The notes under the pieces are model-generated. The model was given only the letters and a program-made list of their open reading frames with translations. It had not been told where the DNA came from and made no database searches. A stretch of DNA of 64,000 nucleotides. Source: Phenylobacterium kunshanense (GTDB lineage Bacteria > Pseudomonadota > Alphaproteobacteria > Caulobacterales > Caulobacteraceae). The stretch spans positions 186,001-250,000 of the forward strand of contig NZ_QFYS01000003.1 of the NCBI RefSeq assembly GCF_003254525.1, in the 5' to 3' direction. Numbering within the stretch: the stretch's first letter is position 1; every line of letters starts with the position of its first letter. Positions 22,476 through 38,763 of the stretch are shown here, piece by piece. A program made the position numbers and the translations under genes.

Positions 22476-22599
22476 CCTCAGCAGCTTTTCTCCACGCACG
22501 CTCCCGTTTCTCGCGGGGGCGTGCGCCTTTGCAGTGGATGCGAACGCACGCCACAGCTTTGACGGGCGAACTTGGTTCGTTCATTGCAGGGGCTGACCC

Positions 22600-22812: not shown

Positions 22813-22838
22813 GGACCCGCCAGCTGACGGCCGACAGC

Positions 22839-23723
22839 TCAGCCGATCTGGCGGTCGAAGTTGTAGGGATCCGGCGCGTCGCGGGCCGCCAGGCTCAGTG
22901 GCTGAAAGCCCGCCTCGTTGTCGGACTGCGCGAAGCAGAAGCCGGTGATCCAGCCGCGGCCGGCCAGGTCGCGGTATTCCACGAAGCCGTGGAAGTAGAC
23001 GCTCGGCCGTGAATCTTCGCCGCCGGATCTCACCTTCCGGCCCGGCTTCAGCGCCGAAAACAGCGGCAGCGCGCGACCGGTTTCGATCTCCTGAGAGACA
23101 TCATTCGCACCGACGGCGACGCCGTGGACGACGGGCTTGCCAGCCTCCTTGTCCGGATCGATGGGGTCCGGCATCTCGCCGCTGTTGCCAAGCTCGAAAT
23201 GCCGCCGGGTGATCAGCGCCGGCACGCGGCCGAGGTTGCGGAACCGGTACTTCGTCACGTCGTAGGTGATCGAGTTGTCGCCGAAGGTGACGCCGCTCTT
23301 CACGACCTCAAGCAGCAGGAACGGCCGCTCGTAGCCGCTCAACATGCGCTCCGCCACGTCGGCGCTGCGCCGGTTCTCCCGCCACGCACGGCGGGCGTAG
23401 ACGGCCGCGGCTACCGCAGCGAGGCCCGCGATCGCGGACAGTCCCAGAGCGCTGAAGCCCAGGTACGTCTGCCAGCGCGCGGCCTCGACCTGGGCGGCGA
23501 TCCCTTCCTCGGCGATGCGGTTCGCGTGCTGGGCTGCGGCCAAAGTCTCGCGCTCGAAAGCGGATGGCCGGTCGATCGAAGTGGGCGCTGGCGCAGGCTC
23601 ACTGGCCACCGGCGTTTGCGCGGGCGCCGCCGTTACGGCCGCGGCAGTGACGCCCGGACCCAACAGCACGGCGATCAGCGACCAGGACGCAGACGCGAGC
23701 AGCGGACGGAGGGTTGGACGCAT
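22839..23723 (-). CDS. Hypothetical membrane-anchored protein
   Basis: This 294-residue protein has an N-terminal signal or anchor (residues 8-30) and a second hydrophobic helix at about 85-107 (FSALGLSAIAGLAAVAAAVYARR), followed by a ~190-residue soluble domain. Conserved-looking stretches are YRFRNLGRVPALITRRHFE and VYFHGFVEYRDLAGRGWITGF, a pattern seen in small inner-membrane proteins with a cytosolic beta-domain; no domain name can be given. It runs against its neighbours and may be a lone cargo gene. The ATG at 23723 was chosen because the frame upstream is noise. Confidence 0.6.
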   Translation of the reverse strand: MRPTLRPLLASASWSLIAVLLGPGVTAAAVTAAPAQTPVASEPAPAPTSIDRPSAFERETLAAAQHANRIAEEGIAAQVEAARWQTYLGFSALGLSAIAGLAAVAAAVYARRAWRENRRSADVAERMLSGYERPFLLLEVVKSGVTFGDNSITYDVTKYRFRNLGRVPALITRRHFELGNSGEMPDPIDPDKEAGKPVVHGVAVGANDVSQEIETGRALPLFSALKPGRKVRSGGEDSRPSVYFHGFVEYRDLAGRGWITGFCFAQSDNEAGFQPLSLAARDAPDPYNFDRQIG

Positions 23724-23930
23724 GCGGCGAGCGTGCCGCGATTCCGGCGGGTCGCGTTGGCCGGGTGCGGCCGGCGTCACCGGCGCCGCCGAAGCGGAGG
23801 ATCGCGACGGAGCGCCACCGGGCCGGCCCGCCGGCAAGGGTGCGCTGGCGCCGCCTTCGGCGCCCTGGCCTGCGGGCCGGTCCGGCGGCCGGAGGTCGCG
23901 AGCTTCGGCTCGCAGCCTCAGGAGACCGCC

Positions 23931-24878
23931 ATGCGACCGCCATCCACCTTCTTCAACACCGCCGACCTCGACGGCTTCGATGCACGCACCGCCGCGCTGC
24001 AGGACCCGCGACCCCATCCCACCGAGCCGCAACTGGTCCAGCTGGGCCGGGCCCTTCTGGGCGAGGTGCTCGACACCGTGCTGGGCGGCGCCCTCGAGGA
24101 TCACGCCGTCACCATCTGCGAGACGCTGATCGGCGGGCTGCACGCCGGTGTCCAGCGCCTCGAACGGGACGCCGACCGCGAGCGCGAGCGGCTCGCCGGC
24201 CTGCTGCGCGACTTCGACGGCTCCGAGGTCGCCGACGTGGACCTGCAGGAGGCGAAGGCGCGGGCCGACGCAATGGACGTGGCCGCCGAGGCCCTGGCCT
24301 TTGTGCGCGACGCCGCCGCCGAGAGTTATGGCATTTCGACCGGAGAAGTCTGGAGCCCCTGGCGGGGATCGGTCCGCGGCGGGGCGACTGCGGCGCAGCT
24401 CGACGCCCAGGCTGCGCTGCGTGCGATCGAAGTCCGCCGCCGCGACGCCGCCGACCCCGGCGATGCGGTGGTCGCGTTCCGCGCTTCGCCGCGCAGTGAC
24501 ACGCCCGAGGACGCCGGACGGATCTTCGACGCCCTGAACTGGGCTCGCACCCAGCACCCCGACATGTCCCTCGCGCTTACCGGCGCGAAGGGCGGCGAGC
24601 GCATCGCCAAGCGCTGGGCGCAGCAGAAGGGCGTCCGTCTGGTCCTGGCCCGTCCCGACTTCGAGCGCTTCGGCCGCGCCGCGCCGTTCCGCGCCAACGA
24701 CCAGCTGCTGGCGCTGCAGCCGGTCTGCGTGCTGGTGCTGCCCGAAAGCCTGGGCCTGGCCGCGCAGGCCGGCGCGCCGCCGTTCGGGCCGGCGATGAAC
24801 CTCGCCGAACAGGCCCAGGCGCGCGGCGTGCGTTGTGTGCGGATCGGTCCAAAGCCCGGCGCGCCCGCCGCCGCCTGA
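23931..24878 (+). CDS. DUF2493 (SLOG/YAcAr-like) protein
   Basis: This 315-residue protein has a helical N-terminal half and a C-terminal DUF2493 domain. In that domain, ALNWARTQHPDMSLALTGAKGGERIAKRWAQQKG and VLARPDFERFGRAAPFRAND form the Rossmann-like fold thought to bind nucleotide-derived ligands. DUF2493 genes recur beside ParB-like, RadC and DUF736 genes on alphaproteobacterial plasmids and ICEs. ATG 23931 has AGGAG 10 bases upstream. Role unknown. Confidence 0.8.
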   Translation: MRPPSTFFNTADLDGFDARTAALQDPRPHPTEPQLVQLGRALLGEVLDTVLGGALEDHAVTICETLIGGLHAGVQRLERDADRERERLAGLLRDFDGSEVADVDLQEAKARADAMDVAAEALAFVRDAAAESYGISTGEVWSPWRGSVRGGATAAQLDAQAALRAIEVRRRDAADPGDAVVAFRASPRSDTPEDAGRIFDALNWARTQHPDMSLALTGAKGGERIAKRWAQQKGVRLVLARPDFERFGRAAPFRANDQLLALQPVCVLVLPESLGLAAQAGAPPFGPAMNLAEQAQARGVRCVRIGPKPGAPAAA

Positions 24879-25055
24879 GCCCGGCCGGCGGGCTGTGTCG
24901 AATCCGGCGACCGGCCCGCCATTTCCTGGCGTGCATTGTGAATATTGGCGGGCGGCCCAGGCGGCGGCGCCCGCGAGGGGGAAATATCGCCCTTGTCACG
25001 ATCCGGGGCGGCCGCGCCTCCTTGCCGCTTCGCCTGATCCAGGCCAGCGGAGTTT

Positions 25056-25700
25056 GTGATGGCCGAGCCCCAGGCCGAGCCCTTCCATGTCGCCCTGTCG
25101 GCGCTGCGCGAGCGCCTGCAGAACGGGACGCTCGCGCCGGGCGGCCGGGCGACCGCCGTCGACCTAGCCGACGAGCTGGGCCTCTCGACCACGCCGGTGC
25201 GCGAGGCGCTCTCGCGCCTGACCGGGGAGGGGCTGCTGGAGGACCGGCGGGGGCAGGGCTACTTCGTCCGCCTGCTCGGCCCCGTCGAGGTCGCGGACCT
25301 CTACCGGATGAGTCTGGCGCAGCTCCTCATCGCGCTGGACCCCCGGCGTGCGAACCGGGTCGCCCCGGCTTCGCCCGGCCCGCTGGACACCGAACCGGCG
25401 GGCGGTGTTGACCCGGTCGCCGGCGTCGAGTCGCTCTTCCGGCGCTGGGTGGCCGCCACCGGGAGCCGGCCGCTGTACGCCGCCTTCCGCATCGGGCAGA
25501 TCCAGCTCGGGCCGGTGCGTCGGCTGGAGGCCCAGCTGTTGGCCGACCTGGACGGCGAGGCGCTGGCGCTGCTCGCGAGCGGGGCGGCGTCGCGGGCCGA
25601 GCGGCTGGCGCTGCTGCGCCAGTTCCATGCCGTGCGGATCCGGGAATCCGACCGGCTCGCGGCCCTCATCGAGGCCGGCGCGCGGGACCTGAAAAAATAG
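25056..25700 (+). CDS. GntR-type regulator of the lasso peptide cluster
   Basis: This 214-residue transcription factor has an N-terminal winged helix of the GntR type (LRERLQNGTLAPGGRATAVD, LGLSTTPVREALSRLTGEGLLE, then RGQGYFV). The helical C-terminal effector domain is shorter than in FadR. GntR-type genes accompany several alphaproteobacterial lasso loci. It lies 85 bases before the precursor gene, and a tandem GAATATA repeat in that gap is a candidate binding site. A second ATG is one codon downstream of the first. Confidence 0.75.
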   Translation: MMAEPQAEPFHVALSALRERLQNGTLAPGGRATAVDLADELGLSTTPVREALSRLTGEGLLEDRRGQGYFVRLLGPVEVADLYRMSLAQLLIALDPRRANRVAPASPGPLDTEPAGGVDPVAGVESLFRRWVAATGSRPLYAAFRIGQIQLGPVRRLEAQLLADLDGEALALLASGAASRAERLALLRQFHAVRIRESDRLAALIEAGARDLKK

Positions 25701-25703
25701 ACC

Positions 25704-25721
25704 GAATATAGATTGAATATA
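25704..25721 (+). promoter_or_regulatory. Tandem GAATATA repeat before lasso precursor
   Basis: GAATATA occurs at 25704-25710 and again at 25715-25721, 11 bases apart (one helical turn). The sequence is AT-rich in a very GC-rich locus and sits between the GntR stop and the lasso precursor start. It may be an operator or part of the promoter; direct experimental support is absent. Confidence 0.45.
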
Positions 25722-25785
25722 CACATCCCAGGTTGTCCGATTGGCTCGTCGCAATCAGCGGCGGTTACGACCCAGGGAGGTCAAG

Positions 25786-25911
25786 ATGATGAAGCTGTTC
25801 AGCCTGCGGAGCTTCCGGCTCCTGAGCCTCGGCGGCGCCAAGGCGTCGACCTACGGCAACCCGGACGGCGACGAGGTCGAGATCGACGAGCAACTCTACT
25901 TCAAGCCGTGA
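25786..25911 (+). CDS. Lasso peptide precursor (A)
   Basis: This 41-residue open frame was found by direct reading. The leader is MMKLFSLRSFRLLSLGGAK followed by ASTY, and the Thr at position -2 of the cut site is the residue lasso maturases require. The predicted core is GNPDGDEVEIDEQLYFKP, 18 residues. Gly1 would be joined to the side chain of Glu9 (nine-residue ring), with Tyr15/Phe16 as candidate plugs. Calculated monoisotopic mass of the cyclised product is about 2045.92 Da. GGGAGGTCAAG precedes ATG 25786; ATG 25789 is an alternative start. It is followed by a strong hairpin and the B gene. Glu7 would give a seven-residue ring, which is smaller than usual. Confidence 0.85.
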   Translation: MMKLFSLRSFRLLSLGGAKASTYGNPDGDEVEIDEQLYFKP

Positions 25912-25918
25912 CGCCGAG

Positions 25919-25944
25919 GCGGCGCCGGCTGCGGCCGGCGCCGC
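25919..25944 (+). terminator. A-B intergenic hairpin
   Basis: GCGGCGCCGG (25919-25928) and CCGGCGCCGC (25935-25944) form a perfect 10-bp stem with loop CTGCGG. It lies directly after the precursor stop and eight bases before the B start. No U-tract follows, so it is more likely an mRNA stabiliser or attenuator that sets a high precursor-to-maturase ratio. Such hairpins are known between A and B of proteobacterial lasso loci. Confidence 0.7.
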
Positions 25945-25951
25945 TGTCGCC

Positions 25952-26593
25952 ATGACGCTGACCCTTCGCTCCGACGTCCATGCCGCCGTGGTCGATGACG
26001 ACGTCGTCGTCCTCGACATCGGCGCCGACGACTATCTCTGCCTTCCGGGCCTTGCGCCGCTCTGGCGGCTGGCGGTCGACGCCGACGGCCGCGTCGGCGA
26101 CCCCGACCTGTCGGCCCAGCTGCGCGCCGCCGGGCTGCTCGGGACGGACCATACGCGTGTTTCTCGCGCGCCGCTTCCGCTGGCGCATCGCTCGGCCTGC
26201 GACCTTCCCCCCGAGCCCCTGACGTTCCGCGACCGCCTGGCCCTGACCGGCGCGCTCTGGGACGTCCTGCTGCACTATCGCGGTCGCTCGCTGACCCACA
26301 TCCTTCGCCATGTGCGGCGACGCGGGGTTGGGCCGGCCGCTTCGGTGGCGGCCACCGTGCGGCTCAGCGCGACGTTTGCTCACGTGCTGCCCTGGCTGCC
26401 CTTGCCCGCCAAGTGCCTGGTCCGCAGCTTCGCCCTGCTGTGCTTCCTGCAGCGGCGGGGCCAGGACGCCCACTGGTGTTTCGGCGTGCGGACCTGGCCG
26501 TTCTCCGCGCACTGCTGGCTGCAGGTCGGCGATGTCGCCCTCGACGACCATGCCGACCAGCTCCGCGCCTACACGACGATCCATGTCGCCTGA
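25952..26593 (+). CDS. Lasso peptide maturation protease (B)
   Basis: This 213-residue protein should remove the leader peptide with ATP and hand the core to the cyclase. Residues 1-80 look like the fused leader-recognition (RRE, B1-like) part. Residues 90-213 are the transglutaminase-like cysteine protease (B2-like): Cys155 in KCLVRSFALL, His187 in FSAHCWLQVG and Asp in VALDD form the expected catalytic triad. The ATG follows the A-B hairpin, and the stop overlaps the cyclase start by 11 bases. Confidence 0.9.
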   Translation: MTLTLRSDVHAAVVDDDVVVLDIGADDYLCLPGLAPLWRLAVDADGRVGDPDLSAQLRAAGLLGTDHTRVSRAPLPLAHRSACDLPPEPLTFRDRLALTGALWDVLLHYRGRSLTHILRHVRRRGVGPAASVAATVRLSATFAHVLPWLPLPAKCLVRSFALLCFLQRRGQDAHWCFGVRTWPFSAHCWLQVGDVALDDHADQLRAYTTIHVA

Positions 26594-28376
26594 GGCGCCG
26601 CAGATTCTGGCCTTCGCCTGGCCGCGGGAGAGCCCTGACGCCGGCGCAGAGGCGCAGGCCTGGCGCGACGCCCTGCGCGCGCGCGGCTGGAGGGTTCTCG
26701 ATGCGGGCCCTGGGCTCGAAGTCTGGGGCTACGGCCGGCCGCTGGCGGTCAGGCGCCTTCACGCCGGGCTGCTGCTCGTGGGCGAAGCGCACCCCCGTAC
26801 CCCCGGCGCGTCGTGTCCGCAGTTCGACCAGCCCCTGTTGCGCACCGCCCGCGCGCTCGCCGACCACCATTGGGGCGAATACCTGGCCCTTTTGCGCGAG
26901 CCGGGCGCGGACCGGGCCTGGGTCTTCCGCGATCCGTCCGGGGGCCTGGACGCCCTGACCTGGAGGGCCGGGCAGATCGTGGCGGTCGCCAACGAGATCA
27001 CGCACTTGCCGTTCGGGCTGTCGCCGCACGACCTGGCGCTCGACTGGGACGCCATTACCGACTTCGTGCGCCGCCCCCTGGCGAGCCTGGACCGCTGCGG
27101 GCTCGCCGGCTTCCACACGGTGACTCCAGGCGACCTGCATCCGCTGGGCGCGTCGCCGGGGGAGGCCGTACCGATCTGGCGGCCGGCGGCGTTCGCGGGC
27201 AACGCGGCGATGGAGGACGCCGAGGCGCGGCTGCGGGCGGTCGTGGACGAGGTCGTGGACGTGCAGGCGAGGCGCGTCGGTCGGGCTGTCGCCGAAGTGT
27301 CCGGCGGGCTGGACAGCGCCATCGTGGCCATCTCGCTCGCCCGCGCCGCCGACCCAGCCGCCAACCTGATCGGCCTCAACTACTACGGTGACCGGCCCGA
27401 AGGCGACGAACGCCCCTGGGCCCGGGCCGCCTGCGCGGCCGCAGGCCTGCCGCTGGTCGAGGTCGCCAAGCCGGTGGGCGAAGTGGACCTGTCCGATTTC
27501 ACCGACTTCGCGCGGGCGGCGCGCCCCGCGTTCAACGCCCTGGACGGGGACCGCGATCGCCACACCTCGCGCCTGGCCCTGGCGGAGGGGGTGGACGCCG
27601 TCTTCACCGGCAAGGGCGGCGATGCGGTCCTCTTCCAGTCGCCGACGCCGCGCGTGCTGGAGGACTACCGTCTGGCCCATGGCCGGATCCCGTGGGGCGA
27701 CCCCTTTGCCCTCGACGTGGCCCGCTGGCTGCGGCGCTCGGTCTGGTCCGCCCGCCGCGCGGCCCGGCGCTCGTCCGCGCCGGCCTACGGCGCGCGGGCG
27801 GGGATCTGGGGCGCGCGGACCCGCGAGGCGGTGACGACGCCGGCGCATCGCTGGCTCACCGATCTCGACGACATGCCCCCGGCCAAGCGGATGCAGGTGG
27901 AGCTGGTCGCAGCCTCGCAGATGGCGGCGGGACCGTGCCGGCGGACGGCGGTCGCGCAGGTGCGTCATCCGCTGCTGGCGCAGCCGGTCGTCGAGCTGTG
28001 CCTCGCCATTCCGGCCTGGGCGCACGTCGCCGGTGGCCGGGACCGCGCGGTGGCCCGTCGCGCCTTCGCCGACCGTCTGCCCGCCGTCGTCGCCGAGCGG
28101 CGTTCAAAGGGCGCGCTGACGTCGCTCTACAGTCGCCGCACCGCCGCGAGCCTCGCGGTGCTGCGGCCGTTCCTGATCGAGGGCGTGCTGGCCGAGGCCG
28201 GCGTGCTCGATCGCCGCGCCCTGGACGCCGCGCTGCAGCCGGACGCCCTGATCCGCCGGCCGGATGGTGCACGGGTCATGGGGGCGGCGATGGTGGAAGC
28301 CTGGGTGCGGCACTGGCAGGGCCGGGCGCCGGACCTGCGGACCGCGTCACGCGAGCGGCTGCGGTCCCGCGCCTGA
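26583..28376 (+). CDS. Lasso peptide cyclase (C), asparagine synthetase-like
   Basis: This 597-residue enzyme should adenylate the ring Glu side chain and close the macrolactam with Gly1. It has an N-terminal glutaminase-like domain lacking the catalytic N-terminal Cys (MSPEAPQ), so it does not use glutamine. The synthetase domain holds the PP-loop EVSGGLDSAIVA near residue 240 and FTGKGGDAVL. ATG 26583 lies inside the end of the B gene. Its 3' end overlaps the convergent isopeptidase gene by about 100 bases. Confidence 0.9.
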   Translation: MSPEAPQILAFAWPRESPDAGAEAQAWRDALRARGWRVLDAGPGLEVWGYGRPLAVRRLHAGLLLVGEAHPRTPGASCPQFDQPLLRTARALADHHWGEYLALLREPGADRAWVFRDPSGGLDALTWRAGQIVAVANEITHLPFGLSPHDLALDWDAITDFVRRPLASLDRCGLAGFHTVTPGDLHPLGASPGEAVPIWRPAAFAGNAAMEDAEARLRAVVDEVVDVQARRVGRAVAEVSGGLDSAIVAISLARAADPAANLIGLNYYGDRPEGDERPWARAACAAAGLPLVEVAKPVGEVDLSDFTDFARAARPAFNALDGDRDRHTSRLALAEGVDAVFTGKGGDAVLFQSPTPRVLEDYRLAHGRIPWGDPFALDVARWLRRSVWSARRAARRSSAPAYGARAGIWGARTREAVTTPAHRWLTDLDDMPPAKRMQVELVAASQMAAGPCRRTAVAQVRHPLLAQPVVELCLAIPAWAHVAGGRDRAVARRAFADRLPAVVAERRSKGALTSLYSRRTAASLAVLRPFLIEGVLAEAGVLDRRALDAALQPDALIRRPDGARVMGAAMVEAWVRHWQGRAPDLRTASRERLRSRA

Positions 28377-30795
28377 GGTGCTCGTCGAGCCAGGCGAAGG
28401 CGCGGGCGTAGTAGTCGCGGATGTTGCCCGGGCTCGCGAACGCGTGGCCTTCGCCCCAGTAGGTGACCAGCACGGCGTCCTTGTCCTGCCGCTGCAGGCT
28501 GGAGAACATCTCCTGCGCCTGGCCGATCGGGATCGTGTCCAGCTCGCCGTGCACGATCATCAGCGGGGTGCGGATGCGGTCGGCCGTCAGCACCGGGCTG
28601 TTGCGGACATAGCGGTCGGGGTCCGCCCAGGGCGGGGCGCCCATGCCGCCCTGCAGGTCCTCGGTCCAGCCGGCGGCCGCGTAGCTGCCGACTCCGCCCT
28701 GCGGCAGCACCAGGCGCTTCAGCCCATAGTCGCCGTGCATGCTGAAGAGGTCGGCGGGCGCGGCCTGCACGATGGCGGCGGCGAAGCGATCGGTCTGCCC
28801 GAGGACGGCCAGCGCCCCGTAGCCGCCGAAGCTGGCGCCCCATATCCCCAGCCGGTCCGGGTCGAAGGCGTCACGCAGCGCAGGGTCGGCCGCGGCGGCG
28901 TCGACGATGGCGAGCACCTGGTCCGCCAGGCCCGCCGCCGGGCCGTCGGGGCCCGGTGAGCGGGGTAGGCTGGGGATCAGGACGGCGTAGCCCTGGCCGA
29001 CCAGCAGCGTCGGCGTCTCGATCCCGCCGCCGCGCCGGGCGTCCATGTAGTCCGGGAAGGTCGGGTAGGCGGAGCCCGGGTAGGGCCACACGACCAGCGG
29101 CGGTCGAGAGACCGATGCGGCGGGCCGCATCAGCCAGCTGGTGAGGTGCTCCCCGCGAGGTCCTCGGTGGTGGACCGCCGCGATCCGCAGCGGATCGACG
29201 TCGCTGAGGCGCCCGTTGATCGCCGAGATCGATACCTCGGGCGCGCCCGGCCGTACCCAGCTCAGCACCTCCGGACCGTCGTCGTGTGGGGTTCGGACGA
29301 CGGCGCCGGAGGGCCCGGCGGCCAGGACCTGGGCGCCGGCCGCCAGCGCGACCCCCGCCCGGCCGGCGCCGAGGTGGAGCTGCGGGCCCGACGTCCCCTG
29401 CAGCGCCACCGAGACCTGATCGGCCGCGCGGGGGGAGAGCTCCGCGCGCGGGCGCAGCCCCACCGCGGCGGGGGCGACCAGGCGGATGGCGGGCGCGCTG
29501 CCGCTCCAGGCGGGATGCGCGCCCGCCCGATCCACGCGCCAGAGCCGCCCGCCACTCACCAGCCAAAGCGCCTCCCGCCACAGGATCGCCGGGTCGCCGG
29601 CCGGCGCCGGGATCGCGTGGGTCAGGTTGCGGGTGCGATCGCCGGCCAGGCGGAACCAGTCCGCCCGGCCGGCGCCGACGGCCCCGACCGGCCGGGCAAA
29701 GACGATCGGGTCGCGTCCCAGCCAGCCGGCCCGCACCACCGCGGGCCGGCCCGACACCACAGGCCTCAGATCCTGGCCGACGGGGCGGGCGGCGGCGGCG
29801 GCGGCGTCCACACGGAGCAGCGCCCCGCCTGTCCACGGTGCGTCCGCCTGTCGCGCGAAGATCAGGAGTTCGTCGGACGTCGGCGACCAGCGGAGCAGCT
29901 GGCCGAGGACGTCCCAGGCGCGGTCCAGCGCGCGGCCGTCTCCCGTGGCGAGGTCGACCAGCGTCAGCCCCGTACGCGTCGTCTCGACGCCCCAGGCGCC
30001 CTGGACCGGGCGGCCGGGGTCAAGCGGGATGTCCTCGCCTTCGGTCAGCAGGGCGGCGCGCCGACCGTCGGGAGAGACCTCGAAGTCGGCGAAGGCGCCG
30101 CTGGCCAGCCGGCGCACGTCGCCCGTCTTGAGATCGATACGGAGCAGGTCGCGGCCCGGACTGCGGGGCCGAAGGGTCCGATAGCGTCCGCTGCCCACCG
30201 CCGTGACGCTGGTCTCGCCGGTGGCGGCGCGGGCGCGTTGGGCGGCCAGCTCCAGCGGATAGCGCCGCAGGCGCAACTCCAGCGGCGCCGAGGCCGGATC
30301 GGGGAGGGCGAGAACGACCAGGGTCTGGGCGTCCTGCCAGGCGACCGCGCGGCCCGTGGCGGTGAGCAGGGGCGCGACGTTCAGCCAGCGGGTGGCGCCC
30401 GTCGCGGCCTCCGCCACGCCCAACTCCCAGCGTCCCGCCTTCAGGCGGAAGACCGCCGCGCGGTCGCCGCAGGGCGAGACCGGTCCCAGCGCATAGCCGA
30501 CCCCCGGTTCGCGCGGCACGAGGGGCCGAAGCTGTGCGGGCGCGCTGAGCGGCGCGACCTGCAGCCGGGTCCGGAACAGGTCTGTGCGGCTGTCGTAGTC
30601 GAAACGCGCGGCCGAGGCGTACGGACCCTGCGCCTCCACGAACAGCCAGCGTTCGGCGAGCTCGACCCGCCCGAACGCCTCGCGCTGCAGGACGTCCTCC
30701 ACGGTGAGCGCCCGGCCCAGCGCGACGTGCGCGCAGGCGAGCGCCATCAGAGCCGCCGCGGCCAGCAGGCCGCAGCGCCGACGGGGCGTGCGCAT
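28276..30795 (-). CDS. Lasso peptide isopeptidase (E), S9 prolyl oligopeptidase family
   Basis: This 839-residue secreted hydrolase has an N-terminal signal peptide (LLAAAALMALACAHVALG), a long beta-propeller-like region and a C-terminal alpha/beta hydrolase domain. Ser655 lies in GASFGGYG, Asp753 in HGELDTIPI and His784 in GEGHAFASPGN; these form the catalytic triad. Family members linearise their cognate lasso peptide by cutting the isopeptide bond. ATG 30795 overlaps the stop of the TonB receptor gene. The last ~35 residues are a Pro-rich tail running antisense into the cyclase gene, possibly read beyond the functional end. Confidence 0.88.
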   Translation of the reverse strand: MRTPRRRCGLLAAAALMALACAHVALGRALTVEDVLQREAFGRVELAERWLFVEAQGPYASAARFDYDSRTDLFRTRLQVAPLSAPAQLRPLVPREPGVGYALGPVSPCGDRAAVFRLKAGRWELGVAEAATGATRWLNVAPLLTATGRAVAWQDAQTLVVLALPDPASAPLELRLRRYPLELAAQRARAATGETSVTAVGSGRYRTLRPRSPGRDLLRIDLKTGDVRRLASGAFADFEVSPDGRRAALLTEGEDIPLDPGRPVQGAWGVETTRTGLTLVDLATGDGRALDRAWDVLGQLLRWSPTSDELLIFARQADAPWTGGALLRVDAAAAAARPVGQDLRPVVSGRPAVVRAGWLGRDPIVFARPVGAVGAGRADWFRLAGDRTRNLTHAIPAPAGDPAILWREALWLVSGGRLWRVDRAGAHPAWSGSAPAIRLVAPAAVGLRPRAELSPRAADQVSVALQGTSGPQLHLGAGRAGVALAAGAQVLAAGPSGAVVRTPHDDGPEVLSWVRPGAPEVSISAINGRLSDVDPLRIAAVHHRGPRGEHLTSWLMRPAASVSRPPLVVWPYPGSAYPTFPDYMDARRGGGIETPTLLVGQGYAVLIPSLPRSPGPDGPAAGLADQVLAIVDAAAADPALRDAFDPDRLGIWGASFGGYGALAVLGQTDRFAAAIVQAAPADLFSMHGDYGLKRLVLPQGGVGSYAAAGWTEDLQGGMGAPPWADPDRYVRNSPVLTADRIRTPLMIVHGELDTIPIGQAQEMFSSLQRQDKDAVLVTYWGEGHAFASPGNIRDYYARAFAWLDEHLRRGTAAARVTRSAGPAPGPASAAPRLPPSPPP

Positions 30796-33700
30796 CACCA
30801 GCTCTTGGTGAGCTGGATCGAGAGGAAGCGGCCGATGACGTCGGCCGTGGCCGGGTCGAAGCCGAAGCCGGAAGGGTTGTCGTAGAAGGGGGGCTTCTGG
30901 TCGAAGGCGTTGCGCAGGCCCACGAGAACGCCGGCGCCCTCCCAGCGTGTCCCCGCCGGACCCGTCCAGCGGACCTGCAGGTCGAGGGTGGTCTGGCCGG
31001 AGATCTTCGAACCCAGGGCGTCCTCGAACCCGCTGAGCCGGTTCACCGCAACCCCGAACGCAAAGGCGTCGCGGCTCCAGTCGGCAGTGGCGCGGGCCCG
31101 GAACCGGGCCGGCACGCCAGGCTGGCCGAGCAGTTCGACGAAGTCGGCCGCCGGGGTCACCGCCTGTTGGTAGTCGAGCAGGCGCGAGGCGTTGAGGCCG
31201 AGGCTGAGGCGGCCGCCGGCGAGGTCGGCCGCATAGGTGGCCTGCAGGTCCACGCCCCGCACCGTCAGCCCGGCCGTGTTGACGAAGCGCATGTCGACGA
31301 CGGCGCCGTATTCGGTGGGCGGGAAGACGCCCTGTGCGGTGGTGGTGATGGGCTCTGCGAGGAGCGCGGTGATATAGTCGAGGTCGGCGGGGTTGGTGGC
31401 GGGCGAGATCCGTCGCACGAACGGCGTCAACCGCGGATCGGTCAGCGCCACCGTGCGGTTGGTGAAGGCCGGCCGGTCGATGCGGTTCTCGAACTTGGTG
31501 CTGAACCCGTTGAGGGAGAGGCGCAGGCCCGGCATGGACGGCGGAGACCAGTCGACTCCCACCGTCACGGTCTTGGCTGTCTCGGGGCCGAGGTCGGGAT
31601 TGCCGCCCTGCGGCGCCAGGGTGAGGATGCGCGCCGGCCCATCCGCGAGCCGGACGGGGCCGTTGCTGCGCGAGTCCGCCAGCTCCTGCAGGGCCGGGGC
31701 GCGGTAGGACTCGCCGTAGGTGGCGCGGACGAGGACGCCTTCGGCCGGGGTCCATTGCAGGCTGACCCGCGGGTTCACGGTGGACCCGAAGTCGCTGTAG
31801 CGCTCGGCGCGCACCGCCCCGGAGAGTTCGAGCGCCTCGATCCCGCGGACGCGGTTGCCGGCGCCGATGAGCGGCACGCGGGCTTCGGCGTAGAGCGCCG
31901 TCACCGTACGGTCGGTGGAGAGGCCCTCGATAGCGCGGGGCGCCGCCGTGGAGGTGTAACCGGAGCCCGCGCGGACGAAGGTCTCGCGGCGGACCTGGGC
32001 GCCCAGCGCCAGCTTCAGGTCGCCGGCCGGCAGCACCAGCACCGTGCCGTCGGCCTGCAGGTTCGCGGAATAGACCCGGCTGCGGAAGCGGGTCTTGTTG
32101 AAGCCCGAGCCGATCGCGGCCAGGACGGCCGGCGTGTTGGCGGGTTGGCCCGCGTAGGGATTGAAGAAGCCGTCGCGCCGGGCGCTGTAGGCCGTGCCCG
32201 GATTGTCGGCGCTGTTGCCGAGGGCCTCCGACAGGATCAGCGCGTGCAGTGCGCCGGTGGTGGTCCCTTCGATGATCTCCTGCGCGAAGGCGCCGTAGCC
32301 TCCGCCCCGCCAATCCCCGAACAGGCGACCCTCGGCGCCCACGGTTCCGGAGAGGCTCTCCGTGGTGGCGCGGATCTCCGGGTTGGGAAGCTCGGCGAAG
32401 GCGTACTGGATCTGGTTGGAGGCCGCCCCGTTCGGCGAGACGAAGAACGGGTTGTTGCGGCCGACCGACAAGGTCGAGATCAGCCCCGAACCCGTGACCT
32501 TGGCGCTGCGGAAGCTGTGGCGGAGGTCCCCGGACAGCTCGACGTCGGGGGAGACATCCTGGCGCCAGGCGAGGTAGGCGCTGGAGCGCCGCTGACTTGG
32601 GAGCAGGTCGACGCCCTGGTTCTGCTCGTAGCGATTGACGGTGCCGGCCGCGAAATCGGCGGCCTTGAGGCCGGTCCCCGGCTGTCCGGCCGGGATCGCC
32701 CAGAACGGGACGCTCGCCGCCGTCGCGGGATCGGTCCGCAGGACGTTGCCCGGGAAGCTGAAGGTGTCCCGGCGGTCCGCCCCGCCTTGGCTCCGGAAGT
32801 CCGAGGTGGCGGCGAAGCCCCGGTCGTCCGCCGACAACGCCTCGCGGCGGTAGAGTTCGAAGGCCGCCAGGATGTTGCCCGAGCCCCAGTCGCGGCCGAT
32901 CACCCCGCCGACCAGACCCTCGCGCGGCTCTCCCGCGGTCCCGACCCCGCCCCGGACGCGCAGTTCGCCGCCGTCCAGGTTGCGGCGCAGGATGACGTTG
33001 ACGACGCCGCCCACGGCGTCGGACCCGTAGAGCGCCGAGGCCCCGTCGAGCAGGACCTCGACGCGCTCGACGGCGATGGACGGCAGGCCTGAGAGGTCCG
33101 CGAAGTCGCCCTTGTTGCCGGATCCGGCCATGCGACGGCCGTTGAGGAGCACCAGCGTGGCGTCGCTGCCCAGGCCCCGCAGATTGACGCTCGAGCCGTA
33201 GCCCGAGTTGGTGCCGAGCGGGTCCGCGCGCGTCGTCACCGTCCCTTCGGTGGACTGGCCGGCGAAGTTCTGCGGCAGCACCTGCAGGGCGGCGGCCACC
33301 GTCGCATGTCCGGAGCGCTCGAGCGCTTCCCGATCGAGGAGGATCACCGGCGCTGCCGGGCTGCCGCCGCGTATGTGGGTGCCGGTGACGCGTACCTCCT
33401 CGAGCAGAGCCGGCGGCGGCCGCGGAGCGGGCTCGGCCGGGGCCGTGGCGAGGGCAGCCGAGGATTGCGCGGCGGGCGGCGGACCGTCGCCGTCACCGCC
33501 GAAAGCGGCGGCGGCGCGGGCTCTCGGTCCGGCCTGCGGCGGCGCCGGACGCCGCGGCTTGAGGACGACGACGCGGGGCGAAGTTCGACGGGCCTCGATC
33601 TCCTGCGTCGCCAGCAGTCGCCGCAGCGCCTCTTCGGTGGTGAAGCGCCCGGAGAGGGCCGGCGCGGTGCGGCCGGTCACGAGCTCCGGCGGGAAGAGGA

Positions 33701-33878
33701 GTTGGTCGCCGGTCTGGGTGGAAAGGGTCCCGAGCGCCTGCTCCAGCGGGCCGGCGGGGATGCTGATCGGCTTCGGGCCCGCCGCCAAGGCGGGCGTCGC
33801 CGCGACGGCGAGGACGCTCGTCGCCAGGGACCCCAACAGAACGCGGCGCAGACTCCGACCCAACGCAACCCGTCGCAT
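30795..33878 (-). CDS. TonB-dependent receptor with STN signalling domain
   Basis: This 1027-residue outer-membrane receptor has a signal peptide (VLAVAATPALA) and a secretin/TonB N-terminal domain at about 38-110 (IPAGPLEQALGTLSTQTGDQLL). A linker with Pro/Ala follows, then the plug (EEVRVTGTHIRGG, GLGSDATLVLLNGRRMAGSG) and a 22-strand barrel ending FLSIQLTKSW with the terminal Trp. It should take up the lasso peptide or a similar ligand and signal inward through FecR and the ECF sigma factor. It is coupled to the isopeptidase gene by overlap. It may control expression of the whole uptake/cleavage set. Confidence 0.9.
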   Translation of the reverse strand: MRRVALGRSLRRVLLGSLATSVLAVAATPALAAGPKPISIPAGPLEQALGTLSTQTGDQLLFPPELVTGRTAPALSGRFTTEEALRRLLATQEIEARRTSPRVVVLKPRRPAPPQAGPRARAAAAFGGDGDGPPPAAQSSAALATAPAEPAPRPPPALLEEVRVTGTHIRGGSPAAPVILLDREALERSGHATVAAALQVLPQNFAGQSTEGTVTTRADPLGTNSGYGSSVNLRGLGSDATLVLLNGRRMAGSGNKGDFADLSGLPSIAVERVEVLLDGASALYGSDAVGGVVNVILRRNLDGGELRVRGGVGTAGEPREGLVGGVIGRDWGSGNILAAFELYRREALSADDRGFAATSDFRSQGGADRRDTFSFPGNVLRTDPATAASVPFWAIPAGQPGTGLKAADFAAGTVNRYEQNQGVDLLPSQRRSSAYLAWRQDVSPDVELSGDLRHSFRSAKVTGSGLISTLSVGRNNPFFVSPNGAASNQIQYAFAELPNPEIRATTESLSGTVGAEGRLFGDWRGGGYGAFAQEIIEGTTTGALHALILSEALGNSADNPGTAYSARRDGFFNPYAGQPANTPAVLAAIGSGFNKTRFRSRVYSANLQADGTVLVLPAGDLKLALGAQVRRETFVRAGSGYTSTAAPRAIEGLSTDRTVTALYAEARVPLIGAGNRVRGIEALELSGAVRAERYSDFGSTVNPRVSLQWTPAEGVLVRATYGESYRAPALQELADSRSNGPVRLADGPARILTLAPQGGNPDLGPETAKTVTVGVDWSPPSMPGLRLSLNGFSTKFENRIDRPAFTNRTVALTDPRLTPFVRRISPATNPADLDYITALLAEPITTTAQGVFPPTEYGAVVDMRFVNTAGLTVRGVDLQATYAADLAGGRLSLGLNASRLLDYQQAVTPAADFVELLGQPGVPARFRARATADWSRDAFAFGVAVNRLSGFEDALGSKISGQTTLDLQVRWTGPAGTRWEGAGVLVGLRNAFDQKPPFYDNPSGFGFDPATADVIGRFLSIQLTKSW

Positions 33879-34004
33879 GCAAGCTTCCCCCGCGGGCCGC
33901 GGTCGAGCCGGTCACGTCAACCGGGCTTTCTGACGTCGCAGTCCGTCAGGCGCGGGAGACGTGAAGCGGCGGGATGGACCCTACCGGGGGACGAAAAAAA
34001 TCTG

Positions 34005-35027
34005 TCACGCGCCAGGACCGGCCTGGGGACCGGAGGTGGCCGCCGCCCCGGGGGCGAGCTTCCAGGACCCGCCCTGGCCACGGCTGAGGCTGAGGTCGAA
34101 CAGCTCCGCCACGCCGCGGGCGAATGACTCGGAATCGCCGACGTCGAAGAAGCCGCTGACCGGGCGCTCCGCCAGGCCGGGGCCGGCGAGCTCGACCTTG
34201 CGGTCGCTGTAGCGGTTGACCTCGGCGACGGCGGCGGCCAGCGGCGTCTCGCGGAAGACGAGGCGGCCGGTCGTCCAGCTGGTGGTGCGGGCCGCATCCG
34301 TGGCGACCTTGCGGATCGCGCCCTTCGCGGACACCAGGGCTTCCTGGTTGGGCGCGAGCACGACGGCGCCCTGGCCCGCCTCGGGGCTGACCTGGACGGC
34401 GCCCTGCAGCAGCGTCACGCGCACGCCGCCGTCCTGGCGGCGCACGTCGAACTTGGTGCCCAGCGCGCGGATGCGGGCGCCGTCGGCCTCGACGACGAAG
34501 GGGCGCGCGGCGTCGTGGGCGACGTCGAAGAAGGCTTCGCCTTTGGCGAGGACGAGGCGGCGTTCGCCGTCGCGGAAGGCGACCTTCACCTTGCTGTCCA
34601 CATTGAGGTGCACCCGGCTGCCGTCTTCCAGGCGGACCACCTTCTGCTCGACGGCGTCGGTGGCGTAGGCGGGCTCCAGCTGCTGGACCGCCAGTATCGT
34701 CCCGCCGGCCGCGGCCAGGCCGGCCAGGGTGAGGCCGCCGGCGAGGCGGGGGCCCCTCAGCCAGGCGCGCCAGCCGGACCGGCGCTTGCCGCGGTCCAGG
34801 GCGTCCTGGGTCATGCGCAGGATCTCGGGGTCGGCGGCGTGGCGGCCCGACGCATCCCAGAAGGCCTCGGCTTCCTCGTAGGCGGCGTCGTTGACGGGGT
34901 CGTCCCGCCAGTCGCGGAATTCCCGGACGGTCTGGGTGGAGATCGAATGGTTGCCGAGGCGGGCCAGCCACTCGGCGGCCTCCTCCTGGGCGCGCGTGGG
35001 CCTAGGCTTCGGTTGGGGATCGCTCAT
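34005..35027 (-). CDS. FecR-type anti-sigma regulator
   Basis: This 340-residue protein has an N-terminal cytosolic DUF4880-like region (EEAAEWLARLGN, REFRDWRDDPVNDAAY), a transmembrane helix at about 95-113 (LAGGLTLAGLAAAGGTILAV), the periplasmic FecR domain (LEDGSRVHLNVDSKVKVAF, LVLAKGEAFFDVAHD) and a C-terminal domain that touches the receptor STN. It relays ligand binding from the TonB receptor to the sigma factor. It lies 10 bases after the sigma gene, with the receptor 126 bases further on. Confidence 0.92.
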   Translation of the reverse strand: MSDPQPKPRPTRAQEEAAEWLARLGNHSISTQTVREFRDWRDDPVNDAAYEEAEAFWDASGRHAADPEILRMTQDALDRGKRRSGWRAWLRGPRLAGGLTLAGLAAAGGTILAVQQLEPAYATDAVEQKVVRLEDGSRVHLNVDSKVKVAFRDGERRLVLAKGEAFFDVAHDAARPFVVEADGARIRALGTKFDVRRQDGGVRVTLLQGAVQVSPEAGQGAVVLAPNQEALVSAKGAIRKVATDAARTTSWTTGRLVFRETPLAAAVAEVNRYSDRKVELAGPGLAERPVSGFFDVGDSESFARGVAELFDLSLSRGQGGSWKLAPGAAATSGPQAGPGA

Positions 35028-35037
35028 GCGTCGTCGC

Positions 35038-35553
35038 CTAGCCGCGGTACCGCGCCATGCAGAGCCTGAGCGCCTGGGTCATCCGCTTCTCGACGGCCTT
35101 GACCGAGATCCCGAGGTGCGTGGCGATCTCAGCATAGGTCATCCCGCCGAAGCGGCTCAAGACATATACGTCGCGCAGGTTGCGGGGGAGCTTGGCGACC
35201 ACCTCGCGGTGAAGCAGTGTCTCGTGCTGGTCGGGCGGGCTGACGCCTTCCGGGAGGTCGTCGCCGGTGACCAGGCGGGGGCGCTTCTGGGCCTTCTCGC
35301 GGCGCAGATGGTCCTGGCCGACGTTGAGGGCGATGCGGGCGAGGAGCGCCTTGGGGCTGCGCCAGTCGAGCGGATGCTGGGCGAGGCGCAGGAAGGTCTC
35401 CTGGGCCAGGTCCTCGGCGATCTCGCGGCCGAAGCGGCGGGCGAGGAAGGCGGTCAGCCAGGAGGCGTAGGTGCGGTAGAGGGCGGTGACCTCGACCGAC
35501 CAGCCAGTAGTCTTGCTCACTTCAGGCTTATTGGCAGGGTCCGCCTGAGACAC
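35038..35553 (-). CDS. ECF sigma factor (FecI-like)
   Basis: Region 2 is LYRTYASWLTAFLARRFG with EIAEDLAQETFLRLA, and region 4 is LPRNLRDVYVLSRFGGMTYAEIA with the HTH LGISVKAVEKRMTQAL. Both are typical of the FecI/ECF group. The start GTG 35553 has GGGAAC at seven bases and gives 171 residues; GTG 35520 gives 160 but lacks a ribosome site. Longer upstream sequence in frame runs antisense through an XRE gene and is noise. It should direct transcription of the receptor and isopeptidase genes once released by FecR. Confidence 0.9.
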   Translation of the reverse strand: MSQADPANKPEVSKTTGWSVEVTALYRTYASWLTAFLARRFGREIAEDLAQETFLRLAQHPLDWRSPKALLARIALNVGQDHLRREKAQKRPRLVTGDDLPEGVSPPDQHETLLHREVVAKLPRNLRDVYVLSRFGGMTYAEIATHLGISVKAVEKRMTQALRLCMARYRG

Positions 35554-35595
35554 TCGCGTTCCCACTAGGTGCTTACCGGATGGCAGGCCACGTTT

Positions 35596-35627
35596 TGTAG
35601 AGGATACTCCGTGGTGAAATACTCTAC
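35596..35627. promoter_or_regulatory. Operator repeat 1 before first small XRE gene
   Basis: TGTAGAGGATACTCCGTGG (35596-35614) is repeated exactly at 35878-35896 before the second XRE gene. Within the first copy, GTAGAG (35597-35602) and CTCTAC (35622-35627) form an inverted repeat. Each copy precedes an HTH gene on the + strand, so it is probably the shared operator of these regulators. Confidence 0.6.
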
Positions 35628-35647
35628 AATCCCATCGTCTCCGGGCG

Positions 35648-35860
35648 ATGGAGCTCCGGCGGATCCTCGCAAGGAACGTGCTCAGGCGGCGCAAGGCGCT
35701 CGACCTGTCGCAGGAGGAGCTTGCGGACCTCGCTGGCATGGATCGAACTTGGCTGAGCCAGCTTGAGACGACGAAGGCAGCCGTATCGATCGATATCATC
35801 GAGAAGATTGCGAGAGCATTTGAAGTCGATCCGGCGGAGCTTCTTCGGGCCGAGCCGTAG
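35648..35860 (+). CDS. Small XRE-family regulator 1
   Basis: This 70-residue protein consists of one helix-turn-helix (LSQEELADLAGMDRTWLSQLE, then IIEKIARAFEVDPAELL). There is no effector domain, so it may bind its operator as a simple dimer. ATG 35648 lies 20 bases after the operator-like repeat. It is divergent from the ECF sigma gene (start 35553), so the gap serves both directions. It is a close paralogue of the next gene. Confidence 0.8.
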   Translation: MELRRILARNVLRRRKALDLSQEELADLAGMDRTWLSQLETTKAAVSIDIIEKIARAFEVDPAELLRAEP

Positions 35861-35877
35861 CAGGCGAAGACCTCTCG

Positions 35878-35907
35878 TGTAGAGGATACTCCGTGGAGGA
35901 ATCCTCG
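35878..35907. promoter_or_regulatory. Operator repeat 2 before second small XRE gene
   Basis: This is the second copy of TGTAGAGGATACTCCGTGG (35878-35896). It is followed by GAGGAATCCTCGAC, which contains the palindrome GAGGATTCCTC only in imperfect form. Placement 34 bases before ATG 35930 is consistent with an operator or promoter element. Confidence 0.55.
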
Positions 35908-35929
35908 ACGCTGACGCGCTCTGAGCCTA

Positions 35930-36136
35930 ATGGGCGCCCGAGAGACACTTGCGACGAACCTGCGCGCCGCTCGGCGCCGGCAGGGTTTGTCGCAAGAAGA
36001 ACTCGCGTATCGCGCAGATATCGACCGGACATATGTCAGTGCGCTGGAGCGCGGCGTCTATGCGGCGACTATCGACGTGATCGAGCGCATCGCGCGAGCG
36101 CTAGATATGCAGACGTGGGAACTCCTCAAACCGTGA
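35930..36136 (+). CDS. Small XRE-family regulator 2
   Basis: This 68-residue single HTH protein (LSQEELAYRADIDRTYVSALE, then VIERIARALDMQTWELL) is clearly related to the preceding gene; both keep the SQEEL-DRT-LE-IARA pattern. With its own copy of the operator it looks like a tandem duplication that has diverged. The two may repress each other or nearby ICE genes. Confidence 0.8.
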   Translation: MGARETLATNLRAARRRQGLSQEELAYRADIDRTYVSALERGVYAATIDVIERIARALDMQTWELLKP

Positions 36137-36176
36137 GGCAGAAGGGACGCCCCTGGTCGGAGGCGTCCCTGAGAGG

Positions 36177-36485
36177 TCAAGTCTTGCTGCGGCGTGACCA
36201 CCAAAGCTCATGGCCGTCCGGGGTCTCGACCAGCAGCGCGTTGATGGGGGCGGCGAAGCTCGGATCGTCGAGGCGGACGGAGAGACCATCAGGCTTGTCG
36301 GCCCTGGTGAGAGGCCAGGTCGCGCCGAGTTCGGCGGAGCCGGCGTAGACCCGGTGGCTCGGGCCGTGCTCGCCGCTGGCCTCGATCGGCCGGATGTCGA
36401 CCGCCTTCAGGCTGAGGGCGAGGGTGCGAATGGCGCCGTGGAAGCTGCCGTCCGGGGTCTTCTGGAACACGCCGATGGTGGTCAT
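36177..36485 (-). CDS. DUF736 protein, paralogue 1
   Basis: This 102-residue DUF736 protein begins MTTIGVFQKTPDGSFHGAIR and ends VETPDGHELWWSRRSKT. DUF736 proteins are widespread on alphaproteobacterial plasmids and ICEs; function unknown. It faces away from the second copy at 37074, and its 5' leader is homologous to that copy's leader in inverted orientation. AGGAGAC lies close to the ATG. Confidence 0.88.
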   Translation of the reverse strand: MTTIGVFQKTPDGSFHGAIRTLALSLKAVDIRPIEASGEHGPSHRVYAGSAELGATWPLTRADKPDGLSVRLDDPSFAAPINALLVETPDGHELWWSRRSKT

Positions 36486-37073
36486 GGGATCGTCTCCTGC
36501 GCTGGAGCCGCGCCTGCCGCGGCCCGATGGCGCGCCCTGGGCAGGCCCTGGAGACTGGCTGCAGCCGTAGGCCCGCAGCGTCAGCGGAGGACGGCGGAGC
36601 CGTTGCGGCCGGGTCTGGGTCTGCCGGGCTCGCCGGAGGGATGTGGCGGGGTGGCGGCGCAGGTGCGGTCCTGGCCGCCGTGAGGTTCGGTGGCTCGGCG
36701 ACGGAAGCGGGCAGGGGCGGTCACGCTCGCTTCGCAGGGGTTCCTGGGCGTTGTCGTCGGCGCCGGATGATCGCAGGCGTCGGATGCGCCGCGGATGCCG
36801 GTGGCGAGGGGCGCCGGGATTCCTGAGGAGCTCGGTCGGCCTGTCGCGGCCTCTCGTGGCGTGATGGGTCAAGGTCCGGTCCGTGGCGCAACGGCGGGCC
36901 CGGCTTTCCTCCCCTGCGCTGGCGCGCATTCCTCGCGAGGCAAGAAAGCCGGTCCTGGTCGCCGTCCTCCGCTGCGCTGCGGGCCGTGGGCTGCGCCGCA
37001 AACCTGCGAACCTCGACTCCGGACGCCATCGAGGCCGCGGCAGGCGCGGTCCGAACAGATCAGGAGACTTCCA
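36486..37073. repeat. Inverted paired leaders of the two DUF736 genes
   Basis: No gene is supported in this gap. The leader of paralogue 1 (reverse strand) and that of paralogue 2 (forward strand) share blocks: GCCGCGGCAGGCGCGG then AGGAGAC near the starts, and GCCGTCCTCCGCTG followed by CGCTGCGGGCC further out. The arms are about 36486-36600 and 36960-37073. Conservation of untranslated sequence between paralogues suggests a functional leader or a recent inverted duplication. Confidence 0.6.
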
Positions 37074-37388
37074 ATGGCGACCATCGGCACCTTCACCAAG
37101 AGCGGCGACGGCTCCTACGCGGGCTCGATCAAGACCCTCAGCCTCAACGTCAAGCAGGCCCAGCTGCGGCCCGTCGACAAGGAGAGCGACAACGCCCCCG
37201 ACTACCGGATCTTCGCCGGCGGCACCGAGTTCGGGGCGGCCTGGAAGAAAACCTCGCGCGAGACCAACCGCGACTACCTCTCGGTCAAGCTCGACGACCC
37301 CAGCTTCCCGGCGCCGATCTACGCGAACCTCGTCGACGCGGACGACGGCTACAGCCTGGTCTGGTCCCGCAACCGGATGAACAGCTAG
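37074..37388 (+). CDS. DUF736 protein, paralogue 2
   Basis: This is a 104-residue DUF736 protein ([61 protein letters not shown]). It retains the canonical family sequence more closely than paralogue 1. The RBS AGGAGAC precedes ATG 37074. Neighbours are small uncharacterised ICE genes that lead to the mobilisation module. Confidence 0.9.
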
Positions 37389-37509
37389 GCCGTGCAGGCG
37401 GTGGCTCCTCAAGCAGGGGCCACCGCCCCGCACTCCCGAGGTCGGCGAGCGACGAGCGGTGAGATGGGACTCGCCAACGGTTCGAAGTTCTGCTTTCGTT
37501 CTTTTTCGC

Positions 37510-37674
37510 ATGGAAGCGCACAACGACAATAAGCCGCCGCCGGAGGCGAGCCGCGTCCTGCCGATCCTGGGTCGCGTCGACCCGGACGGCCGCCTGCGGC
37601 TCGACCGGCCGCTGAACGCCGAGATCCTCGACTTCCCGCGCGCCCCCTGGCCCAGCGATCCCCGGGAGGCGTGA
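37510..37674 (+). CDS. Small hypothetical protein
   Basis: This 54-residue protein starts at ATG 37510 (MEAHNDNKPPPEASRV). It is hydrophilic, with an ILGRVDPDGRLRLDRPLNA beta-hairpin-like centre. It overlaps or abuts the GTG of the next gene (37676). No family was recognised, and no adjacent structure suggests a function. Confidence 0.45.
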   Translation: MEAHNDNKPPPEASRVLPILGRVDPDGRLRLDRPLNAEILDFPRAPWPSDPREA

Positions 37675-37675
37675 C

Positions 37676-38762: not shown

Positions 38763-38763
38763 G

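Follow-up and report, generated by a model that had tools for sequence, protein, structure and literature searches.

Lasso peptide clusters of the caulonodin VI/VII kind in Caulobacter and of the brevunsin kind in Brevundimonas diminuta (the caulonodin VI and brevunsin cores are tabulated in PMC12427821) combine B and C genes with a long peptidase gene, E, and with genes for a TonB-dependent receptor, a FecR protein and an extracytoplasmic function (ECF) sigma factor. The same set occurs in a 64,000-nucleotide stretch of Phenylobacterium kunshanense DNA (NZ_QFYS01000003.1, positions 186,001 to 250,000), here called the window and used for all coordinates unless a contig is named, where it forms a module within an integrative element of about 62.3 kb. 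The window differs from the described clusters in its core, which is new relative to caulonodin VI/VII and brevunsin, and its B, C and E proteins are 28-49% identical to the relatives aligned, with the exception of the nearest C (59%). In the literature searched, no description of the caulonodin VI/VII or brevunsin clusters as parts of mobile elements was found.

Other described systems share portions of this organization. In astexin/benenodin-type clusters with AtxE2, a convergent peptidase and a TonB receptor likewise stand beside A-B-C, according to plasmid annotations and the excerpts available of PMC11006600; however, their E proteins are about 650-710 amino acids long and score 22-53 bits against the window E, and the window precursor matches no NCBIfam model. 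The dusA-specific genomic islands of Farrugia et al. 2015 (PMC4482086) resemble the element in having an integrase by dusA and imperfect repeats at the dusA 5' end, and include an island with a type IV secretion system (T4SS) in Phenylobacterium zucineum HLK1 and one of 184.8 kb in Caulobacter K31, but the functions that the accessible part of that paper names do not include lasso cargo. FecIRA-type cell-surface signalling offers the same STN receptor, FecR, FecI-like sigma factor and sigma promoter before the receptor gene, although in the window the cell would itself make the ligand, a lasso peptide, and genes for its biosynthesis and for a peptidase share the locus. In pherotype loci such as comQXPA and agr, finally, the peptide varies together with its modification enzyme and its receptor, and the genes on either side are conserved; the window system differs from these in being Gram-negative, in using a lasso peptide and a TonB/ECF output for a putative signalling function, and in its location on a mobile element.

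We consider it probable that the window module is a two-layered loop through which a lasso peptide of the caulonodin VI-VII/brevunsin kind would be made, sensed, imported and degraded, and that this loop is carried by an apparently intact dusA-type integrative and conjugative element (ICE). The parts are ordinary; the arrangement is new.

The lasso module of the window

The module spans positions 25059-35520. On the plus strand, a GntR-family regulator (25059..25700, PF00392) is followed by a 41-residue lasso precursor A (25786..25911; leader MMKLFSLRSFRLLSLGGAKASTY, core GNPDGDEVEIDEQLYFKP), by B, a cysteine protease with a putative leader-binding (RRE-like) part (25952..26593; NF033537 lasso B2, PF13471; Cys155/His187/Asp199), and by C, an asparagine-synthetase-like macrolactam cyclase (26583..28376; PF00733; SGGLDS at 240-245). 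These converge on four minus-strand genes, namely E, a long S9 peptidase of 839 residues in the isopeptidase position (28276..30795; PF00326; Ser655/Asp753/His784), the TonB-dependent receptor with an STN signalling domain (30795..33878; STN PF07660, Plug PF07715, barrel PF00593), the FecR anti-sigma/transducer (34005..35027, PF04773) and the FecI-like ECF sigma factor (35038..35520; PF04542, PF08281). The receptor start at 33878 was chosen from a conserved ribosome-binding site, while searches ran with a start at 33836. With their ends at 28376 (C) and 28276 (E), the two convergent genes overlap by 101 bp (28276..28376), a recurrent trait present in 26 of the 36 loci with both ends readable and in a single phase in 19 of those 26. 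An earlier note on this DNA had described a complete lasso set in this convergent layout, with C and E overlapping by about 100 bases; every gene that it named is in place, the set is complete, and B and C keep their catalytic residues.

The precursor fits the lasso rule of a small residue at core position 1 and Asp/Glu at positions 7-9, having Thr at -2, Gly1 and Glu9 (STY-GNPDGDEVE, the hyphen marking a leader/core boundary deduced from the Thr -2 rule), and Glu9 is found in 7/7 type I precursors. Catalytic residues were assessed on alignments of 35 B, 19 C and 38 E sequences, window included, and the residues whose absence from B and C the earlier note held would speak against its reading are present. 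B scores 76.5 bits against NF033537 (cut-off 33), keeps Cys155 and His187 in 35/35 aligned sequences and has Asp199 as 31 Asp and 4 Glu; its predicted structure has a predicted local distance difference test (pLDDT) value of 93.9, with TbiB1 a weak match among those listed by Foldseek (E 0.38), and a phmmer search of the PDB with B returned no relative. C scores 95.1 bits against PF00733 and retains the SGGxDS motif in 19/19, its best curated model being NF033561 (69.5 bits, cut-off 300).

The identity of E is less straightforward. Ser655 and His784 are kept in 38/38 aligned sequences, Asp753 is represented by 35 Asp and 3 Glu, and the predicted fold (pLDDT 87.6) is that of an S9 peptidase with a Ser-Asp-His triad, whose best matches among those listed are ordinary S9 exopeptidases. 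Against the lasso isopeptidase model NF033523, E reaches 49.8 bits (cut-off 400), and no lasso isopeptidase appears among its 33 phmmer matches or the fold matches listed. In a comparison with eight plasmid sequences, seven short AtxE2-type lasso-cluster peptidases score at best 52.8 bits and a generic S9 peptidase of the own genome 58.9, so that AtxE2 types are no nearer, whereas a long S9 peptidase encoded in a lasso cluster on a Polymorphobacter plasmid scores 383 bits. A relationship of E to AtxE2 finds no support in the model score, the bit scores or the fold matches listed. By its sequence, E is assigned to a long form (about 800-845 residues) common in such clusters and is not demonstrably of the AtxE2 family. 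This long form accompanies clusters known to make lassos, since locus L281 carries the caulonodin VI core (19/19) and L294, from B. diminuta, a brevunsin-like core (18/21; PMC12427821 table). Because E scores weakly on the isopeptidase model and against AtxE2-type peptidases, the name isopeptidase, used for it in the earlier note, rests on gene position. As a separate observation, the E of one otherwise close element (G081:C34:222639-224891) is 31% identical over part of its length, far below the other genes of that element.

Between fecR and tonB, a motif GTAGGG(T/C)-N16-CGTCT, which looks like an ECF promoter, occupies the same place in 7/7 type I elements; in the window, this putative promoter reads GTAGGGT-N16-CGTCT (33957..33984, minus strand) and precedes tonB-E. 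The own genome contains two exact copies, both in the element, the second (5912-5939, minus strand) preceding an open reading frame (ORF) that ends at 3660 without a Pfam match, and being unseen in relatives; when one mismatch is allowed, the genome count of 7 shows no excess over a reversed-pattern control (8). The motif was not found before virB, relaxase, integrase or precursor, and no conserved motif was seen by eye upstream of the ECF gene. Control of the transfer genes by the ECF factor is not supported, given the location of the motif before tonB and at 5912-5939 instead of before virB, relaxase or integrase; by the same placement, the sigma factor probably raises receptor and peptidase. 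STN receptor, FecR and ECF sigma are present together, as in FecIRA-type signalling.

Multi-core lasso precursors were observed in 13 of 20 loci examined (L237, L239, L240, L242, L250, L251, L252, L255, L256, L257, L258, L260 and L264). Each is a single ORF of 75-114 residues with 2 or 3 tandem units, a unit consisting of a recognition motif LGxA..xTR and a core with Glu9; these ORFs lie about 100-400 bases upstream of B, and all adjoin virB1. To our knowledge, multi-core lasso precursors have not been reported.

The integrative element and the linkage of lasso clusters to conjugative genes

The element extends over C29:185818-248081, of which the first 182 bp precede the window and the remainder takes up positions 1..62081. 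It is delimited by an imperfect 20-bp repeat (17/20 identical), with attL at C29:185818 and attR (62062..62081, plus strand) inside the 5' end of the host gene dusA, the insertion site (62074..63069, plus strand, PF01207). Exact repeats of the dusA core were sought within about 100 kb and not found; a degenerate att pattern with at most one mismatch later gave attL, and occurs three times in 1.39 Mb of fetched sequence, namely at attL, at attR and 1.3 kb before the lasso cluster in G055:C36. A left end near C29:153 kb was rejected, as no att-like sequence was found there, yet DNA upstream of dusA in genome G012 matches C29:151520-153350 of the host, 33 kb left of attL, a match that the ends chosen here do not explain. 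A dusA-type tyrosine integrase (60858..61919, minus strand, PF00589) lies beside the gene. Of the 9 other genus genomes with a homolog of this integrase (60 genomes searched), 8 have it at a distance of 153-155 bp from dusA.

The genes around the module comprise, on the plus strand, RadC (18481..19128, PF04002), a Toprim-domain protein (19125..20096; PF13362, PF23639), a DUF2958 protein (20093..20515, PF11171) and a ParB-like protein (20679..22475, PF02195) to the left of the module, and to its right a DUF736 protein that serves as backbone marker (37074..37388, PF05284; another DUF736 protein, 36177..36485, minus strand, PF05284, precedes it), a MobC/NikA-like accessory protein (38764..39285, PF05713) and a MobA/VirD2 relaxase (39282..40349, PF03432). 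The T4SS follows on the minus strand, with the VirD4 coupling protein (47530..49389, PF02534), the VirB11 ATPase (49355..50356, PF00437), VirB6 (53675..54613, PF04610) and the VirB4 ATPase (55526..57910, PF03135), together with VirB10, VirB9 and VirB8 (50353..52984) and VirB3, VirB2 and VirB1 (57903..59121), which are named from operon position alone. The description of the cluster as lying inside conjugative backbone genes of a dusA-type element is thereby confirmed, and its gene content and ends predict mobility for what is apparently an intact dusA-type ICE. The element also holds an AbiEii/AbiEi toxin-antitoxin pair near its left end (1227-2931), a TIR-domain protein that is a possible defence gene (8264-9223) and, as further cargo, adjoining genes (11861-16787) for a protoglobin chemoreceptor, a histidine kinase with PAS and receiver parts, and a regulator of LuxR type.

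The same host has a second lasso element (C22:696105-771839). Over 75.7 kb it shares 99.86% identity with an element in G067 (C70), a genome of another species, whereas identity in the adjoining flank amounts to 79-81% and between the dusA regions of both genomes to about 77%. Its left end is in tRNA-Arg(acg); a right end was looked for and not found. This contrast points to recent transfer of the second element between species and bears indirectly on transfer of the window element. Mis-binning in one assembly could produce such a match, yet the divergent flank shares a contig with the element in both genomes.

Carriage of this kind is widespread. The genus Phenylobacterium yielded 46 lasso C loci (matches of at least 200 bits). 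At least 29 of them share their contig with a VirB4 or relaxase match no more than 60 kb away, in comparison with at least 1 of 92 generic S9 control loci (Fisher p 8e-17); both counts are lower bounds, and the controls are the S9 rows between 61 and 33.9 bits, with G057:C226 dropped as judged a lasso E fragment. A scan of named, Caulobacterales-centred genomes, in which the best 80 of 321 loci were used, found T4SS or relaxase homologs within 10 kb in 30/80 (Brevundimonas 17/24, Phenylobacterium 7/22, Caulobacter 1/17, rest 5/17) and any backbone homolog in 44/80. C homologs also occur on 25 plasmids, all below 60% identity (a megablast of the cluster DNA against plasmids gave no match); 19 of these were opened, one of them unannotated, and T4SS genes of VirB, Trb and Tra types were present within about 12 kb in 8 of the 18 annotated stretches. 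On the plasmids of Caulobacter FWC26 and C. rhizosphaerae, Toprim, ParB and RadC precede GntR, much as in the window. In view of the genus, named-locus and plasmid counts, mobile carriage is common rather than exceptional, and the view of the earlier note, that such loci are usually described as chromosomal, is not supported as a rule. A fixed chromosomal place of the cluster, which the earlier note held would speak against its reading, is not what was observed.

These counts bear on the possibility, to which we give somewhat less than an even chance, that the clusters came into the elements fortuitously and persist through some benefit to the host that has nothing to do with transfer, the linkage reflecting insertion hot spots. 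The absence of the ECF motif before virB, relaxase and integrase agrees with such passive carriage, as do VirB4 loci of the window's family (at least 59% identity): for 24/41 of those listed, the contig shows no lasso C up to a distance of 110 kb, a figure inflated by contig breaks (G066 is one case) and from which two G011 VirB4 fragments are omitted. Five of the genomes concerned (G002, G044, G051, G058 and G074) lack any C match; G002 carries integrase, relaxase and VirB4 by dusA and no lasso cluster, so that elements lacking the cluster, a comparison proposed in the earlier note, do exist. On the other side, the arrangement virB1-g64-XRE/GntR-B-C repeats in Brevundimonas, Caulobacter and Phenylobacterium, and lasso modules adjoin three T4SS kinds (VirB, Trb-like and Tra/MPF_F).

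Conserved shell and diverged specificity block

Comparison of the window with its nearest elements (G066, G081 and G046) separates the module into two layers. A shell is conserved, with identities of 70-92% for GntR, 75-89% for FecR, 84-87% for ECF and 67-81% for the STN domain of the receptor, in contrast to an inner block with 44-49% for B, 45-46% for C, 34-52% for E and 52-63% for the TonB barrel; leaders share 14-19/23 residues and cores 4-5 of 16-18. DNA identity to G066 is about 0.9 in GntR, drops within B to about 0.6 and has recovered to 0.9 by the initial part of tonB, which places the block edges near the leader/core and STN/plug boundaries. The contrast extends to silent fourfold sites, of which 301/406 are identical to G066 in GntR+FecR+ECF versus 511/934 in B+C+E+TonB (p 1e-11), the corresponding shell and block counts being 246/350 and 503/954 for G046, and 205/340 and 368/718 for G081. 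Cores are hypervariable, with 32 distinct ones in the 40 loci listed.

Trees of the 12 elements with enough genes (G025, with two clusters on one contig, was omitted) are in conflict: the window joins G037 in the lasso proteins, G066 in the regulators, and G052/G066/G081/G046 with G037 outside in the T4SS. In approximately unbiased (AU) tests, the lasso data reject a grouping of the host (G000) with G066 (p 4e-13), the regulators reject the host with G037 (p 8e-5), and so does the backbone (p 1e-82). G052 points the same way, having a window-like T4SS (VirB4 83%) and yet a lasso set, regulators included, of 38-49% identity. Taken together, the tree conflict and the pattern of diverged block and conserved shell suggest that elements exchange core, B, C, E and receptor plug/barrel with one another as one unit, while the control genes stay.

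A decidedly unlikely alternative is old vertical divergence without exchange, in which the block would simply be fast-evolving. It draws on the T4SS silent sites, which relative to G066 (40-62% same) show as much divergence as the block sites (49-57%), so that the silent-site contrast alone is no proof of exchange; the conflicting topologies with their strong AU p values, and the G066 contrast in silent sites between shell and block genes, argue for exchange instead.

Proposed working, rival readings and implications

In the loop that we propose, B would bind the leader and cut after Thr-Tyr, and C would activate Glu9 and join it to Gly1, giving a threaded 18-residue lasso. The peptide would leave the cell, and cells with the matching TonB receptor would bind and import it. 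The STN domain of the receptor would then signal through FecR to the ECF sigma factor, and this would drive tonB-E from the GTAGGGT-N16-CGTCT promoter, E acting as the S9 peptidase that cuts the imported peptide. The shell (GntR, leader, STN, FecR, ECF) would stay with the element as the inner block (core, B, C, E, receptor plug and barrel) diverges and is exchanged, peptide and receptor thus changing together under a constant output. The loop would be private and may serve self-recognition.

Several observations weigh against this loop. C scores only 42.5 bits against the curated lasso cyclase model NF033535 (cut-off 525), E resembles ordinary S9 exopeptidases in fold and is no nearer to AtxE2 types than to a generic S9 peptidase, and no export gene is found in the module. 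For 17/46 lasso C loci, no VirB4 or relaxase match among those listed lies within 60 kb; several of these loci (G059:C182, G059:C90, G011, G046:C18, G055:C36) sit on short contigs, have backbone genes or are accompanied by an att site. As regards exchange, the T4SS silent sites imply that part of the contrast between block and shell may reflect faster protein evolution instead of swapping; moreover, the trees were quick ones, the AU groups were picked after they had been seen, and the G037 genes were assembled from frameshifted fragments.

The purpose of the loop admits several readings, and our estimates for these and the preceding alternatives overlap, some of them being compatible with each other. 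A scavenging role, which we hold possible but rather unlikely, would have the lasso bind a metal or nutrient outside the cell and be retrieved by the private TonB receptor, E freeing the load and the block diverging since private retrieval excludes cheaters. Pyoverdine with FpvA/FpvR/FpvI is a parallel for scavenging by a private receptor. The TonB receptor with STN, FecR and FecI-like sigma fits this role, as does the conserved sigma promoter found only before receptor and peptidase, and the available portion of PMC11006600 mentions a proposed siderophore-like role of lasso clusters with an isopeptidase. On the other hand, no metal-binding feature or iron-responsive site came to light, though no search was aimed at either. 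Neither the T4SS linkage nor the LuxI/LuxR genes in 5/18 plasmid stretches would be predicted by it. In those stretches (L309, L310, L312, L315 and L318), genes for an acyl-homoserine lactone synthase, LuxR and phytanoyl-CoA dioxygenase adjoin the GntR of the module, and a link of lasso production to quorum sensing is possible.

A bacteriocin is unlikely. In that case the lasso would kill relatives without the element, the own receptor and E would protect or recycle, and the element would hold the host population as colicin plasmids do. Carriage on mobile elements and hypervariable cores with a receptor varying alongside them accord with this reading, but no ABC exporter gene is present as in antibacterial lasso clusters, a receptor for the own toxin would be odd, and proteobacterial clusters without an ABC transporter are, in the consulted extract of PMC7549694, mostly of isopeptidase type, antibacterial activity being tied to the others.

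Our most speculative proposal, which we advance as doubtful, is that lasso peptides here are pherotype-like recognition signals of conjugative elements, each element having a private peptide-receptor pair, exchanged as a block, by which cells would sense matching elements in neighbours and adjust uptake, transfer or competition; the block would change specificity, with GntR and STN-FecR-ECF keeping the output.

The open-licence literature searched, outside which most subscription papers lie, gave, in the titles and abstracts listed, no account of lasso clusters as regular ICE parts or of specificity-block exchange. If these clusters are indeed regular modules of conjugative elements with a swapped specificity block, the role of isopeptidase-type lasso peptides for their producers would become directly testable, the block pattern would supply peptides matched to their receptors as a natural library, and mobile elements would be marked as a place to seek lasso clusters.

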